From assembly GCA_015228935.1 (NCBI GenBank), contig JADGCO010000002.1:16349-80348 (forward strand): DNA of 64,000 nt. Reading direction: 5' to 3'. Source of the stretch: Magnetococcales bacterium (GTDB lineage Bacteria; Pseudomonadota; Magnetococcia; Magnetococcales; DC0425bin3). A program made the position numbers and the translations under genes. The number at the start of each line of letters is the position of its first letter. Position 1 is the first letter of the stretch. The notes under the pieces were generated by a model. The model had not been told where the DNA came from and made no database searches. It saw only the letters and a program-made list of their open reading frames with translations. This document shows, piece after piece, positions 43,705-62,701 of this stretch.

Positions 43705-43850
43705 AAAAGTATTTGACGATTTGCTGGCAAGTATTCACCAGATGGGCGACCACATGCGCGGGAAAACCCTGGATGGGATCAAGATTGTGGAATTCCCCAC
43801 TGTGGATACCAAAATAGCATTTGATGCACGAGAAAACCTGGAAATTCAGG
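43697..43850 (+). pseudogene. 5' fragment of a HigA/XRE-type antitoxin gene
   Basis: The ATG at 43697 overlaps the dehydrogenase stop by eight bases. The frame reads MDEKVFDDLLASIHQMGDHM, then RGKTLDGIKIVEFPTVDTK. This resembles the N-terminal arm of HigA-like antitoxins (an F-D-E-L-L-x-S-V start and a Phe-Pro-x-x-Asp linker). Where the helix-turn-helix should begin (ARENLEIQ) similarity is lost, and the sequence runs into an ATPase fragment on the other strand. No toxin gene remains. Confidence 0.5.
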
Positions 43851-44292
43851 GGGAAGAATCCATGGCCTCCTCGCGCACGACTTCCGGGGGCCAGCGCCAG
43901 GCGATCCACTGCCGATAGAGCGGCACGGAAAATTTGTAGGCCGGGCCATTTCTCAGCAGGATTTGTTCGTCAAATCTTGCTTCGAGGCAACCTTGGATTT
44001 GATTGCGGGGCAGAGGCATGCCGGCCTGATTCATGAAGGCTTCCACGTCGGCGGTGGTACGCCAGATGCGGGTGGATTCATCTGAAAGCCAGGCCAGGGT
44101 GGCAAGGACCCGATGATCGGCGGCCTTCAGATCGCCCCAATGATTGTCAAAGGCGGCATTGGTGTCGAGTTCCAATACCTCCTGGATGGCAGTGTTCATG
44201 TCGGCCACGGTCACATAGTTGGTTCTTTGTTCTCCCTCGGCCAGGGCGTTGTTGAAACGGCTCTGGATGGTCTGGCCAACACAGCCGTAACG
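43846..44292 (-). pseudogene. 3' fragment of an AAA-type ATPase gene
   Basis: The frame is open from 44292 to the stop at 43846 (148 codons). It starts without an ATG at RYGCVGQTIQSRFNNALAEG and continues through YVTVADMNTAIQEVL, FDNHWGDLKAADHRVLATLA and a winged-helix-like end YKFSVPLYRQWIAWRW. This pattern is typical of the C-terminal part of AAA_16/ORC-like ATP-binding proteins that follows the P-loop domain. The 5' half is missing and is replaced by the AT-rich gene; the break coincides with the TAG that ends that gene, in the same frame. Confidence 0.6.
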
Positions 44293-45714
44293 CTAGACTG
44301 ATCCGCTTTTTTTTAAAACAAAGCATGCCAGTCCCTCGTCATGGCCAAACCATAATATTTTCAGGCCAATCTTTTCTATAACTTTACGTAAAGCGACGGG
44401 ATCATATTCATGAATATATGACAGATAAGCGGAAGACATAACATCTTCATCTCCAGGAAGTTTAAAATCGTTGTAAGTCGCAATAACAGTTCTCGTATCC
44501 GGCACGTTACTCCTATTTTCTTGCTCAACATACCTAAGTCTATCGCTATCGTAGTCCACTCCCAACATGTCAAGCGGTGTAAAATCAAATTTCTTATTAA
44601 TATGTTCACTTCCACCTATGTCAACACTTCTATTTGTCTTTAACCTTACCTCAACTATCAATACGTCTTCAATAAACATAGCCTCTTTTATTCTATATAA
44701 AAAATCAACTTCCTTATCCATATTCCCAAGCGTGTTTCCTAAAAGGGTGAAAATATTAGGTTCTGGGCGATACTGATATACAGGAGTAAACGATTTTAAT
44801 GACTTACTGAAATCTGAAACAATAGCTTTAATCTTTAATCTGTTTTTTAAATCTTTCACATCTACAACCGTTTGAATTGCATTTGAGATAAGAGTTGGGC
44901 TGATATCAAAAGGATAATAAAAAATATCGTTGACCGACTTTGTTTGTCTTTCCATAATATTGGTAAGAAAAATTCTGTCCTTTACACCATTTCCTGGACC
45001 AAGTGAAATATAATCCGGCTGGGAAGAAACAAAATCATTTCCAATAGAATCCAATATTTTCCCTATATTGTCTGTAAAAAAAGAAACAGATTTACCGAAA
45101 TACTTGTATTCTGCGTCCTGACACAAGCCTAGCCACAATGATGATCCACGATCAAACTTATACAAATACTGGGTTGGAATCAGGCTTGCGTTCCGAATAT
45201 GCTTTATTATTTGTCTACGATCATCCTTACTCCAATGCTCCAGATAAAATGTGGCGTCAGTTATCTCAGGAAAAACATCTCCTCTATTAAGCACTTTCGC
45301 TGCTTTTTTCTGAGATTTTAATTTAAAGGCGCGACTGTTTTTTATCCATTTTGATAAAAGCATTTCAAATTCAGAAAAATTTTCATGATCATATACTAGA
45401 TGCCTTAAATGTGAAATATCTGAAGGAAAGCTGTCCTTTTTTCCCGTGATCAAAATAATATCTTTATTGAAGGCAGATGCCTGTCCCAATTCAAAGTAAA
45501 CATTTGGATTTACCTCAGACAGCTCTGCAATTACCAGATCAGCGGTTCGAATTCTTTCAGAAATATCTGAATAAAATGAAGACGACCCTTCAATCTGATC
45601 CGCTCTGATTGGATTAAAGCCATGCTTATTCAAAACTTTCGAAATGACACCACCATAGATGGATTCATAAGGTTCCTTGTATGGCATAATAATAAAAGCC
45701 TCAAACATGCTCAT
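44293..45714 (-). CDS. TIR/nucleoside-deoxyribosyltransferase-like domain fused to EgtD-like methyltransferase
   Basis: 473 residues. Residues 1-110 match the TIR-like/deoxyribosyltransferase pattern: FEAFIIMPYKEPYESIY, then RADQI, ADLVIAELSEVNPNVYFELG with candidate catalytic Glu 75, and ILITGKKDSFPSDI. Residues 150-473 resemble SAM-dependent histidine-betaine (EgtD/Methyltransf_33) enzymes: SLGPGNGVKDRIF (237-249), YYPFDISPTLI and IFTLLGNTLGN. ATG 45714 has GGAGAG seven bases upstream. Composition is strikingly AT-rich (17 G/C in bases 45301-45360) against GC-rich neighbours, indicating recent transfer. No ergothioneine genes accompany it. A defence or modified-nucleotide function is inferred, not shown. 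Confidence 0.65.
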   Translation of the reverse strand: MSMFEAFIIMPYKEPYESIYGGVISKVLNKHGFNPIRADQIEGSSSFYSDISERIRTADLVIAELSEVNPNVYFELGQASAFNKDIILITGKKDSFPSDISHLRHLVYDHENFSEFEMLLSKWIKNSRAFKLKSQKKAAKVLNRGDVFPEITDATFYLEHWSKDDRRQIIKHIRNASLIPTQYLYKFDRGSSLWLGLCQDAEYKYFGKSVSFFTDNIGKILDSIGNDFVSSQPDYISLGPGNGVKDRIFLTNIMERQTKSVNDIFYYPFDISPTLISNAIQTVVDVKDLKNRLKIKAIVSDFSKSLKSFTPVYQYRPEPNIFTLLGNTLGNMDKEVDFLYRIKEAMFIEDVLIVEVRLKTNRSVDIGGSEHINKKFDFTPLDMLGVDYDSDRLRYVEQENRSNVPDTRTVIATYNDFKLPGDEDVMSSAYLSYIHEYDPVALRKVIEKIGLKILWFGHDEGLACFVLKKSGSV

Positions 45715-45818
45715 TATTTCTCTCCACTGCACATGTCTTGTTTATGATATTCAACAACTCGCTGTTGTAACGGTCCATTATTTTTTACTATCAAAGAACA
45801 ATTGGCACGGCCCACTGT

Positions 45819-46778
45819 TCACGAGATTGAAACATGCCCGGAAACAGCACCAGGAGGCAGGGCACGAAACCGCTCCCGAAAGAGGGTGACATAGCGTTGG
45901 GTGGCTTCCTGGACGGCTTTTTGGAAGGTGTCGTGGGTATTGCCGGAATGTTCCGGATAGGTCAGGGTCCGGGACATGGGGACCAGGGCACCGCTTTTGT
46001 CGTTATCAAAAAAGGCCCGCATGGTTTCGATCCCCCCCCCCTGGAACCCCACGCCGGGGGCCAGGATGATGGCGCGAGGCATCAGTTTGCGCAGGCGTTC
46101 GGCCTCCTCGGGGAAGGTGGCCCCGACCACGCCACCGGCTAGGCCATAACCGCTTTTTCCCATGGTTTTTTTGGCCCAATCGTTCACGAGTCTGGCGATA
46201 CGGTCGGCGACGGTTTCGGAGCGGCCGGTTTTGGCTCCCATGAAGAGACCGGAACCGGGATTGGAGGTTTTGACCAGGAAAAAGACCCCTTTGCCATGGT
46301 CGATGGCCAGCCGCAGGAAGGGTTCGATGGCATCTTCGCCCATGAACGGATTGACGGTGATGCAATCCGCTCCCAGATCGGAGCTGCCCATCCGTCCCCC
46401 TCCCAGGGAGCCACCACCAGCCAGATATCCCCGGGCATAGGCCAGGGATGTGGAGCCGATATCCCCCCGTTTGACATCCAGGATCAGGGGTAGTTTCATG
46501 GTGCGGGCCAGGGCCATGACATCGGCCAGGGCCAGCAGGCCGACTGTTCCGAATTGTTCGAAGAAGGCAGACTGGAATTTGACGCCGCAGACCATCTCCC
46601 CGGAGGCTTCCAGAACCAGACGGCAGAAGGTCGTCAAGGCGGAACGGATGGTGACCGGGTCAGAATCCGTCGGGCGCAAAAACGTGGGCATCTGGTCAAA
46701 GTCGGGATCAATGCCAACCACCAGCGGCGAGGTGGCCTTGGCCCGGGACAATATCTGATCGGCAAAATGGTCGGTCAT
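45819..46778 (-). CDS. pyrF: Orotidine 5'-phosphate decarboxylase (type 2)
   Basis: Final step of UMP synthesis. The active-site motif is LILDVKRGDIGST, with the catalytic Lys/Asp pair. The N-terminal VVGIDPDFDQMP and the length of 319 residues mark the longer type 2 subfamily (as in mycobacteria and many proteobacteria) and not the 240-residue type 1. Its ATG overlaps the mlaC stop as ATGA, so it is translated with the Mla operon. Confidence 0.93.
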   Translation of the reverse strand: MTDHFADQILSRAKATSPLVVGIDPDFDQMPTFLRPTDSDPVTIRSALTTFCRLVLEASGEMVCGVKFQSAFFEQFGTVGLLALADVMALARTMKLPLILDVKRGDIGSTSLAYARGYLAGGGSLGGGRMGSSDLGADCITVNPFMGEDAIEPFLRLAIDHGKGVFFLVKTSNPGSGLFMGAKTGRSETVADRIARLVNDWAKKTMGKSGYGLAGGVVGATFPEEAERLRKLMPRAIILAPGVGFQGGGIETMRAFFDNDKSGALVPMSRTLTYPEHSGNTHDTFQKAVQEATQRYVTLFRERFRALPPGAVSGHVSIS

Positions 46779-59919: not shown

Positions 59920-61317
59920 CTAAGCCGTTTTGACCAGTGCTGAACGTAAGCTCATGTTTTGAAGCAGAAACAAAGAGACCAATAAAATCAGAGGATTGAT
60001 TATGGACGTTAATGGCATGCCAACATAATTGACATGGTTTTTCGGAACGAGCATAAAGACAGAAACAATAAATACAACTCGATCCTGATTGGTTAAGATA
60101 TTTTTCGAGTTTATCTGACCAAGGATAAGCAAGGGTGCAACAAACACCAGCAAGTGGTACTCGGCACAAATGGGTGCCAGGAGTACATACAAACAGACAA
60201 GAACAAAGGAGACGACTGCCGGCTTGCTTTTGTGTGCATGAATGCTCAAAATCGCAAGGATCATTGCCATGAAACTGACCAACAGAAATATAGACCACTG
60301 ATCTCCATGGTTCAAGGGCAAACTTGCCATATGTGTACCATTTTTGACAAGCGACCAGAGTGACGCATTGAAGGAATCTCCCAAAGAACCAATTATGTAA
60401 TGAACTTTGTAAATTTCCAATCCACGCAAAAAATTGGTAATCACATAATCCGGATAAAGTGTTTGTTCAATCAAGAAAAAAACAGTCAAGATAAATAGAG
60501 AGGACGCAAGGGTAAATAAAAGTTTCGCAACTGCCTCCTTAAAGCCAAAAACAACCGGGAGGGCAAACAAAAAGATCAACGCAACCGGACGGATATTGAT
60601 GGCAACAGCCAGGAACAACAGACTTCCCATGCTGACCTTGCGTTGTCCAAAACAGTGGACCAAAAATAAAATGATTAGAATTGAGGTGAACCCGGCGTTA
60701 TAATTCCCTCTGGAAAAAACCAACATGGCAGGATAGGTCACCAGACACAGAATAACCGTTACCAGTTTGTATCGAACAGATCGGTTGCCAGGGTGCTGAA
60801 CACCATGAGAAAGCCAAATGACACCCAGCATATAGAAGCCAAACCAGACCCATAGAGCAATTGTTGCATTCTGTGTTGAACTGATAAAATAGGCGCAAAG
60901 TGTGAACAGGAACTGTGAAAATGGAGGGTGATGAAAATGAGTCAAATCTCCCGCCCAAAGGCTGCTAATACCGCCGTAGGGATTGTGTATCAGGTAGTCC
61001 TGATACAATTGAGGCCAACTGGCAAATGCCGTCTTATTTAATAATGGCAATGTAATAAATTTGAACGAAAGCGAAACTTTTATCAAATCCGCAAAGCGAT
61101 CATGCTTCATTTGGAAGTAAAAAAAATCAAATAAATTATCAATACCGTACTTCATGGAAAAAAAAATAATATCAATGGCCGTTGCTACAACAACAAGATA
61201 GACTGAGATTTGCAGCAGTTTTAATGGATCGGCGATGCCTTGAACATTCTTTCGACCACTGGAAAGCCATGTCTGGCCCTCATTTTTTTTATCAGATTGA
61301 AAAGACTGGTGAGTCAT
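59920..61317 (-). CDS. Polytopic GT-C type glycosyltransferase (GT87/DUF2029-like)
   Basis: 465 residues with about ten transmembrane helices. A large first periplasmic loop contains HNPYGG and DLTHFHHPPFSQFL, the type of acidic/His loop used by polyprenyl-phosphate-sugar-dependent GT-C enzymes. It is more AT-rich than the neighbouring genes, as is common in O-antigen-type loci. It would add a sugar to surface polysaccharide on the periplasmic side. Confidence 0.65.
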   Translation of the reverse strand: MTHQSFQSDKKNEGQTWLSSGRKNVQGIADPLKLLQISVYLVVVATAIDIIFFSMKYGIDNLFDFFYFQMKHDRFADLIKVSLSFKFITLPLLNKTAFASWPQLYQDYLIHNPYGGISSLWAGDLTHFHHPPFSQFLFTLCAYFISSTQNATIALWVWFGFYMLGVIWLSHGVQHPGNRSVRYKLVTVILCLVTYPAMLVFSRGNYNAGFTSILIILFLVHCFGQRKVSMGSLLFLAVAINIRPVALIFLFALPVVFGFKEAVAKLLFTLASSLFILTVFFLIEQTLYPDYVITNFLRGLEIYKVHYIIGSLGDSFNASLWSLVKNGTHMASLPLNHGDQWSIFLLVSFMAMILAILSIHAHKSKPAVVSFVLVCLYVLLAPICAEYHLLVFVAPLLILGQINSKNILTNQDRVVFIVSVFMLVPKNHVNYVGMPLTSIINPLILLVSLFLLQNMSLRSALVKTA

Positions 61318-61663
61318 ATGAATTGATCCTGTCTGCCTGACTGTCCCGCTCTCAGGGGCTGTCCTATAACTTGTTGATTTAAAAAAATAATTAAAAACGG
61401 GGATGGAGGATCAGGAGGAAGGGCTGTGACCTTCCTCCTGGCGGGGCTTGTGACTTAAGCCCAAATAAAATCATTCTTTCCAATTTTTTTATCCGAGTGT
61501 AAATGGACAGCTTCTGAGTTCCATTATTTTTTGGGGATCCAGAGGCATATTGATGAACACGAACAGTGGTACTGTCCGATAAGCAACTCCTCAAGATCTG
61601 GATCACTGAAAGCAGATTGCCTGACTCGTTCCGGAATGTGCTTCATTTTCATTGACACATTCC
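61318..61663. other. 346-base gap containing a palindromic element
   Basis: Nearly half is the complete inverted copy of the dispersed element. The remaining 150 bases before the FkbM gene show no convincing frame, terminator or RNA. Confidence 0.5.
61354..61515. mobile_element. Complete MITE-like element, inverted relative to the copy at 33186
   Basis: AGGGGCTGTCCTATAAC at one end and, inverted, AGAAGCTGTCCATTTAC at the other flank a 162-bp palindromic body. Its reverse complement aligns over its whole length with 33186-33349. No transposase frame. Confidence 0.8.
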
Positions 61664-62701
61664 TTATGAAGCAACCGCATAGAGAACTGTATCAAAACCG
61701 TTATGGGCATGGCAACGAAGATAAAAACGGTAACCAAGAGATAATTCTGCCAGAAAAAGGGGAATGGACCATAAATGATCTACAGTATGATAAACACTGA
61801 TCGCCAAACGCGGTCGATACCGTTCGATCAGAATTCTGGCTCCTTGCAAAGCTTCCAATTCGGCACCTTCGATATCCATCTTGATCAGAGTGGGAGCAAA
61901 GGCCATGGCCGCATCATCCAGGGAAACCACGTCAATGACACGATCCCCGGACGGGGAGAGATGCGCACTACCGCTCCCTTCAGGAGAAAAATTCAAGCGA
62001 TTCGTTCCACTCCAGACTCCGGCCTGCCTGGCTTGACCTTGGTTCATCTTTTCCAATACGGTACAAAGTGTCTTGAAATGGTCAGGGTGAGGTTCGAAAG
62101 CCAGAATACTGTCCAATAAAATACCATTTGCAACAAAGTTTTGTACAGTATCTCCCACGAAGGCTCCGCAATCGATCAGACGAACGGGAGTCGGCAAAGG
62201 TGGTACATCTTCGGGAAAATACTGTCTGGCAATATCGGGAGGCGACAGGTCTTGATAATTGCCGAACCGGCGTAACGCGACAAGCTGCGAGAATGTACGT
62301 TTGCTGGAATCGTCCTGAAACAAAAGTGCCGCTTTGGTTACCGATGGTGTGACAGCAATCCAATCGAAGTTTGTGTTGAGCCAATAGGCGTTTTCTGGCA
62401 ACCATGCATGCGCACGGCAGAAATCAAAGTACGTGGTCATATACAAAAAGCCAAGCCCCTTCAAGAATTCAACGAGTGCTGAAACAGAAACGGCAGGGTT
62501 GTGAATGGCGACGATGACTTCGACCTCACGACAGGTCACATGCAGAGAGGCCGTCTCGGGCAAAAAAACCTGTAATCCATCCAGAACAGGCATATGCCCG
62601 GCCCGAATATCGATGAAACAAACCGGTTCGATCTCCCGGGAACGCAGAAATCGCAGAATATCTTGACCTGTTTTTCCTGCTCCGTATATGACCGGCAACA
62701 T
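61664..62701 (-). CDS. FkbM-family methyltransferase with N-terminal nucleotide-binding-like domain
   Basis: 345 residues. Residues 1-130 look like a small Rossmann domain (VIYGAGKTGQDILRFL; VCFIDIRAGHMPVLDG), as in several sugar-modifying enzymes of glycan clusters. Residues 165-340 are the FkbM SAM-methyltransferase: IDCGAFVGDTVQNF, AFEPHPDHF, DVVSLDD and IKMDIEGAELEALQGA. It probably O-methylates a sugar of the surface polysaccharide made by neighbouring genes. Confidence 0.85.
   Translation of the reverse strand: MLPVIYGAGKTGQDILRFLRSREIEPVCFIDIRAGHMPVLDGLQVFLPETASLHVTCREVEVIVAIHNPAVSVSALVEFLKGLGFLYMTTYFDFCRAHAWLPENAYWLNTNFDWIAVTPSVTKAALLFQDDSSKRTFSQLVALRRFGNYQDLSPPDIARQYFPEDVPPLPTPVRLIDCGAFVGDTVQNFVANGILLDSILAFEPHPDHFKTLCTVLEKMNQGQARQAGVWSGTNRLNFSPEGSGSAHLSPSGDRVIDVVSLDDAAMAFAPTLIKMDIEGAELEALQGARILIERYRPRLAISVYHTVDHLWSIPLFLAELSLGYRFYLRCHAHNGFDTVLYAVAS

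Follow-up and report, generated by a model that had tools for sequence, protein, structure and literature searches.

Immune proteins of the TIR/NDT type have been catalogued with sensors, scaffolds and other effectors as their partners. DrHyd domains, which belong to this circle, are treated as NAD+- or nucleotide-processing effectors or as sensors of immune systems (PMC9503650, PMC7159879, PMC8195603), and some may sense nucleotides without any catalysis (PMC9503650). The related family DUF4062 has been described as active anti-phage NADases (PMC13174449). DRHyd is likewise a listed effector in the papers on EAD conflict systems (Kaur et al. 2020, PMC7159879; 2021, PMC8195603), and neither text mentions EgtD.

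We analyzed a 473-aa protein encoded in a 64,000-nucleotide stretch of a Magnetococcales genome (hereafter, the window), in which an NDT/DrHyd-like domain is joined to an EgtD-like methyltransferase domain. With the NDT/DrHyd superfamily (NDT, DNPH1/Rcl and BcmB/MilB), the N-terminal domain shares its fold and the YELG-type catalytic-Glu motif, but the protein scores below the Pfam NDT cut-off and carries the fused methyltransferase. With defence TIR and TIR-like NADases (CBASS TIR effectors, DUF4062/Swarozyc and Thoeris ThsB), it shares the fold class and the glutamate. Like DUF4062, whose fusions have been described (PMC13174449), it is a modular fusion to an auxiliary domain; its partner, however, is an EgtD-like enzyme instead of STING, NACHT or a coiled stalk. 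Modular immune proteins of the NDT/TIR class are a known kind, whereas the EgtD-like partner is unusual. In the searchable literature, outside which most subscription journals lie, we found no description of an NDT/TIR-class domain paired with an EgtD-like one, or of an EgtD-like domain in conflict systems.

We infer a defence role and both enzyme activities for this protein. The reading we favor, at a probability of about one half, is that of a rare, horizontally acquired, stand-alone anti-phage protein, probably acting by abortive infection, in which an NDT-like NAD or nucleotide glycosidase is coupled to an amine methyltransferase.

Gene structure and genomic setting

The open reading frame that the original prediction had placed at 44293-45714 is present and intact; its strand, which the prediction did not give, is the minus strand, with the start codon ATG at 45714 and the stop codon TAG at 44295-44293. 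The gene had also been called sharply AT-rich, and it looks foreign: its G+C content is 35% against 52% in the window, and its GC3 is 31% compared with 60-71% in neighbouring genes. It occurs once in the genome, where a profile search found no further EgtD-family gene. The AT-richness, the synteny break and the status of sole EgtD-family gene in the genome count among the points for the acquired anti-phage protein that we favor.

Table 1. Positions in the window of the 473-aa gene, its domains and motifs, and adjoining features
Feature	Position	Strand	Remarks
Complete CDS, 473 aa, NDT/DrHyd-like and EgtD-like methyltransferase domains	44293..45714	-	Single gene; frame intact in the genome, no internal stops
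Likely ribosome-binding site GGAGAG	45720..45725	-	5 nt ahead of the ATG; read from the sequence
NDT/DrHyd (TIR-related) Rossmann-like domain, residues 1-121	45352..45714	-	AF2, Foldseek, Pfam/PADLOC
Arg37-Ala38-Asp39 (in RADQI, from residue 37)	45598..45606	-	R37 and D39 invariant, 54/54
NPNVYFELG, residues 69-77, containing invariant Glu75	45484..45510	-	Glu in 54/54 aligned sequences
Linker W.KN.RAF...KK....L.RG..F..I.D.T, residues 114-164	45223..45375	-	Conserved with the Melioribacter homologue
EgtD-fold SAM-dependent methyltransferase domain, putative non-histidine branch, residues 165-473	44296..45222	-	Pfam, AF2, Foldseek, residue map
SAM motif I SLGPGNGVKD, residues 237-246	44977..45006	-	Conserved in L115 and L196
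YPFDIS, residues 267-272; Asp270 = EgtD Asp113	44899..44916	-	Alignment residue map
LLGNTLGN, residues 324-331; Asn331 = EgtD Asn166, amine-binding residue	44722..44745	-	Alignment residue map
pyrF	45819..46778	-	Synteny with sister genomes stops at its 3' end, where the 473-aa gene begins
GC-rich open frame of 147 codons without convincing start	43846..44289	-	In frame directly after the stop of the 473-aa gene

In the sister genome G173, rdgB and sat come directly after pyrF, and in the sister genome G002 a Schlafen AlbA_2 gene (L087:9637-10794) comes after pyrF, then rdgB and sat. In the window, pyrF is followed by the 473-aa gene, and both rdgB and sat are absent from the same contig. Judged by gene order, gene content appears to vary on the 3' side of pyrF. 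The headless frame downstream matched no family, the six nearest genomes yielded no relative of it, and it is possibly the 3' remnant of a replaced gene. The whole setting suits a point of rearrangement at which a gene was replaced or inserted. The proposed patch of broken genes comes down to this one headless frame; a cluster of broken genes was not found, and the flanking pyrF, dehydrogenase and sensor kinase genes appear intact.

The synteny break and the headless frame could also be taken as signs of a functionless gene, decaying or chimeric, left by rearrangement at the pyrF breakpoint. We consider this scarcely credible, given the intact frame, the ribosome-binding site and above all a full-length homologue with conserved motifs, which largely refutes it; a pseudogene fusion was rejected on the same homologue.

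The surroundings of the 473-aa gene in the window are no recognisable defence island, no known defence gene was recognised beside it, and no PADLOC system partner was recognised among the neighbours scanned, the sole profile match being that of a TIR effector on the N-terminal domain. The earlier suggestion of a mobile defence gene is kept for its probable defence role; a defence island in the window itself is not supported. Elsewhere in the window, positions 59920-62701 form a second AT-rich patch (approximately 42.5% G+C), which contains an FkbM methyltransferase and a 465-aa ORF that matched no Pfam family.

Relatives and distribution of the two-domain layout

A DNA pattern for the LGPGNGxKD motif was run against 84,980 species, each represented by a single genome. 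Of the 54 loci that matched, two encode relatives, the others being chance matches. The search for proteins of the same layout, suggested with the original prediction, brought to light a full-length homologue of 466 residues in Melioribacter sp. (Ignavibacteriota; L115), with 38% identity over residues 6 to 469 (E = 4e-111), which rules out a chance or artefactual fusion. The pairing of an NDT domain with an EgtD-like domain is therefore real and no local accident, its second bearer being a distant bacterium of another phylum. The Melioribacter gene has a DUF4760 membrane protein downstream, and a Fic protein and an AbiEi-like protein are encoded within 10 kb. A characterised enzyme with this layout was sought and none was found, in line with the first impression that the combination could not be named.

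The methyltransferase also appears with another partner. A 406-residue protein of a Bacteroidia MAG (L113/L196) fuses EAD11 (3.3e-10) to the methyltransferase domain (5.3e-10) and carries the motifs GPGNGIKD and LLGNTFGN. In the phylogenetic tree, the window protein, L115 and L196 were grouped outside canonical EgtD, with support of 92/83, which is not full, and with long branches. This fusion links the branch to the EAD conflict systems, although the window protein itself lacks an EAD and no NTPase partner is seen for it. A more distant EgtD-like relative, a 486-residue Methyltransf_33 protein with a long C-terminal extension, is found in genome G524 (L199), in an island (L199:784-7417) where a ThsB-like TIR gene and a caspase gene precede it and AbiEi/AbiEii follow; a periplasmic binding protein and a small membrane protein are further members. 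The island resembles a TIR-caspase Thoeris system with an additional methyltransferase.

The complete two-domain layout was found in two genomes only, that of the window and that of Melioribacter. No further case was detected among the genomes searched from the window's phylum (399), the Melioribacter phylum (396) and its class (371); because this phylum-wide search misses weak matches (with the Pfam model it failed to recover the methyltransferase domain of the window's genome), the counts are lower bounds. Single-domain matches were all that 72,556 plasmids and 50,697 phages yielded. Scans with peptide patterns from the whole protein, from canonical EgtDs (A1) and from a divergent pair (A2) found no relatives, and a DNA pattern of the motif-I kind gave only chance matches in viral contigs. 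Methyltransf_33 matches from Planctomycetota and most of those from Bacteroidota, tried as further relatives, proved canonical. A joint MAFFT alignment of both domains misaligned the EgtD rows and was left out. In the control genome, that of E. coli, PF10017 exceeded its cut-off, although EgtD is unexpected there.

The N-terminal NDT/DrHyd domain

The two-domain layout and the superfamilies originally proposed were borne out by AlphaFold models, Foldseek and Pfam, with boundaries at residues 1-121 and 165-473, and each quoted motif was located: IMPY from residue 9, RADQI from 37, NPNVYFELG from 69, SLGPGNG from 237 and LLGNTLGN from 324. Fold prediction, for which the input alignment was used without plasmid-derived rows, had been named as the check that might overturn the first assignment, and the first domain came out TIR/NDT-like. 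Its AlphaFold (AF2) model was confident (pLDDT 93.4, pTM 0.87). In a Foldseek comparison with the PDB, the top matches were nucleoside deoxyribosyltransferases, human DNPH1 and the CMP N-glycosidase BcmB (best entries 2a0k, 8pqs, 8rpt and 4jen), and the first TIR structure appeared at rank 50. The modelled fold is nearer to NDT/DNPH1/BcmB than to TIR, which keeps the proposed superfamily and refines the position within it; a plain TIR protein was rejected on this ranking.

The Pfam NDT family (Nuc_deoxyrib_tr) matched at 4.2e-5 and 24.1 bits, below the gathering score of 28.8, which one relative (L169) passes with 29.9. Pfam TIR_2 reached an E-value of 0.19, short of the Pfam TIR cut-off, and the PADLOC TIR effector profile matched residues 22-110 (2.6e-5). 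In the 54-sequence alignment, Asn69, Pro70, Asn71, Val72, Pro97 and Asp99 are near-invariant. Glu75, at the putative catalytic position, aligns with the YELG glutamate of DNPH1; the catalytic Asp of DNPH1 (D80) aligns with Ile51, with Asp50, present in 29 of the 54 sequences, beside it.

In other genomes, this module is fused on either side to a variety of partners, among them TPR-S/MAP3K_TRAF-binding repeats (MAP3K_TRAF_bd), which are sensor-like. It is also carried by mobile elements: in Streptococcus phage Javan306 its gene adjoins an antirepressor with an integrase nearby, in streptococcal prophages it lies in the repressor-integrase region, and in a Pantoea phage-plasmid it sits between the CI repressor and an integrase.

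The closeness of the fold to BcmB and NDTs would also suit a metabolic or secondary-metabolite enzyme, in which the N-terminal domain cleaves a nucleotide as BcmB does CMP and the C-terminal domain methylates the product or its amine. We regard this as distinctly unlikely: there are no biosynthetic neighbours in the window or around the Melioribacter homologue, and the N-domain family is spread across prophages, plasmids and conflict-type architectures.

The C-terminal EgtD-like domain and a candidate role

The C-terminal domain matched Pfam Methyltransf_33, the EgtD family, above the cut-off (2.7e-18). Its AlphaFold (AF2) model was confident (pLDDT 84, pTM 0.85), the only continuous stretch below 50 being the first 30 linker residues. 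In Foldseek, the EgtD of M. tuberculosis was the best PDB match and stood at the top with its M. smegmatis counterpart (E from 7e-16 to 2e-13), with 7scf at E 7e-16 and a TM-score of 0.70-0.77 by target. The domain shares with the histidine N-alpha-methyltransferase EgtD (4uy6, 4pio, 7scf) the whole fold, the SAM site and Tyr39, Tyr56 and Asn166, yet it does so at approximately 15% identity and in a separate branch.

We mapped the histidine pocket in M. smegmatis EgtD numbering on the alignment, whose C-terminal third aligns at 15-25% identity. The SAM residues Gly86, Gly88 and Asp113 are kept in the C-terminal domain, as are, in both full-length proteins, the equivalents of Tyr39, Tyr56 and Asn166 around the amine; Asn166 binds the amino group of histidine, and the roles of the pocket residues other than Met252 are also described (PMC8593015). 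The histidine carboxylate/imidazole pocket is lost (Tyr206 to Glu370, Thr213 to a gap, Met252 to Arg408, Glu282 to Ser432 and Ser284 to Ile434), and the same five residues are lost in the Melioribacter and Bacteroidia proteins. Without them, the domain should not be a histidine methyltransferase, so that the proposed label "EgtD-type" holds for the fold and not for the substrate. Read in the most direct way, the residue map points to a SAM-dependent enzyme that N-methylates an amine, though not free histidine.

An ordinary EgtD with an extra domain could account for the fold, the Methyltransf_33 score and the match to the NCBI EgtD equivalog model, TIGR03438. This is highly improbable, as that match amounts to 56.9 bits against a cut-off of 290.9, the five pocket residues are absent and the protein lies outside the canonical EgtD clade; a plain EgtD was rejected on the residue map.

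The same pattern, a lost substrate pocket beside a kept SAM site, raises the main alternative, doubtful but possible, that the C-terminal domain is a sensor or regulator without working methyltransferase activity. It would then bind SAM, a compound related to SAM or a ligand made by the phage, and control the NDT-like NADase or nucleotidase effector. Sensor-like repeats among the other partners of the N-terminal domain are thought to control it in this manner. The amine-facing Tyr39, Tyr56 and Asn166, kept in both full-length proteins, would be needless in a pure ligand sensor, and their retention counts mildly against this alternative.

For the anti-phage protein that we favor, the mechanism may be sketched as follows. 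Phage infection would trigger the protein; the N-terminal domain would hydrolyse NAD+, or a nucleotide related to it, at the N-glycosidic bond, the C-terminal domain would N-methylate an amine other than free histidine, and both activities would serve one pathway, for example if the released base or a target of the response were methylated. This role is supported by the confident folds, the invariant Arg, Asp and Glu, the retention of the SAM and amine-facing residues beside a lost histidine pocket, and the conservation of layout and linker in Melioribacter. Further support comes from the PADLOC TIR effector match and from the sensor-module fusions and prophage or phage-plasmid placement of the N-terminal domain, as well as from the EAD11 fusion of the same methyltransferase branch and the EgtD-like gene in the island with ThsB-TIR, caspase, AbiEi and AbiEii. 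We counted against it that the window holds no recognised defence neighbour, that non-catalytic DrHyd sensors exist (PMC9503650), that there are two full-length examples only, that the EAD11 grouping has 92/83 support with long branches, and that the pocket map rests on 15-25% identity.

A more specific version, which we think unlikely, is a bifunctional immune enzyme: its NDT-like domain would cleave NAD+ or a nucleotide, and its EgtD-like domain would N-methylate either the base set free or a different amine, thereby blocking salvage of the nucleotide or making a modified signal or toxin. If it is true, bacterial conflict systems would have in the divergent EgtD branch an effector family that had gone unrecognised. 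More generally, a small-molecule methyltransferase partner, from a branch that is also fused to EAD11 elsewhere, would add new chemistry to bacterial immunity, and a non-histidine branch would explain some "histidine methyltransferase" annotations on genes without the histidine pocket.

Other divergent EgtD-like proteins were seen in passing. Two loci from the phylum of a Planctomycetes genome (L217:871-2433 and L214:844-3507) encode EgtD-like proteins with GLGTGSGLxD and GNTIGHLQ motifs; they carry no histidine-pocket motifs, their N-terminal region reads like a DNA-binding module, and they appear to form another non-histidine branch. In G370, a divergent Methyltransf_33 member (L076:1494-2525) has the motifs DLGPGNKSA and GGSTIGN, and an HTH-regulator-like gene lies beside it.
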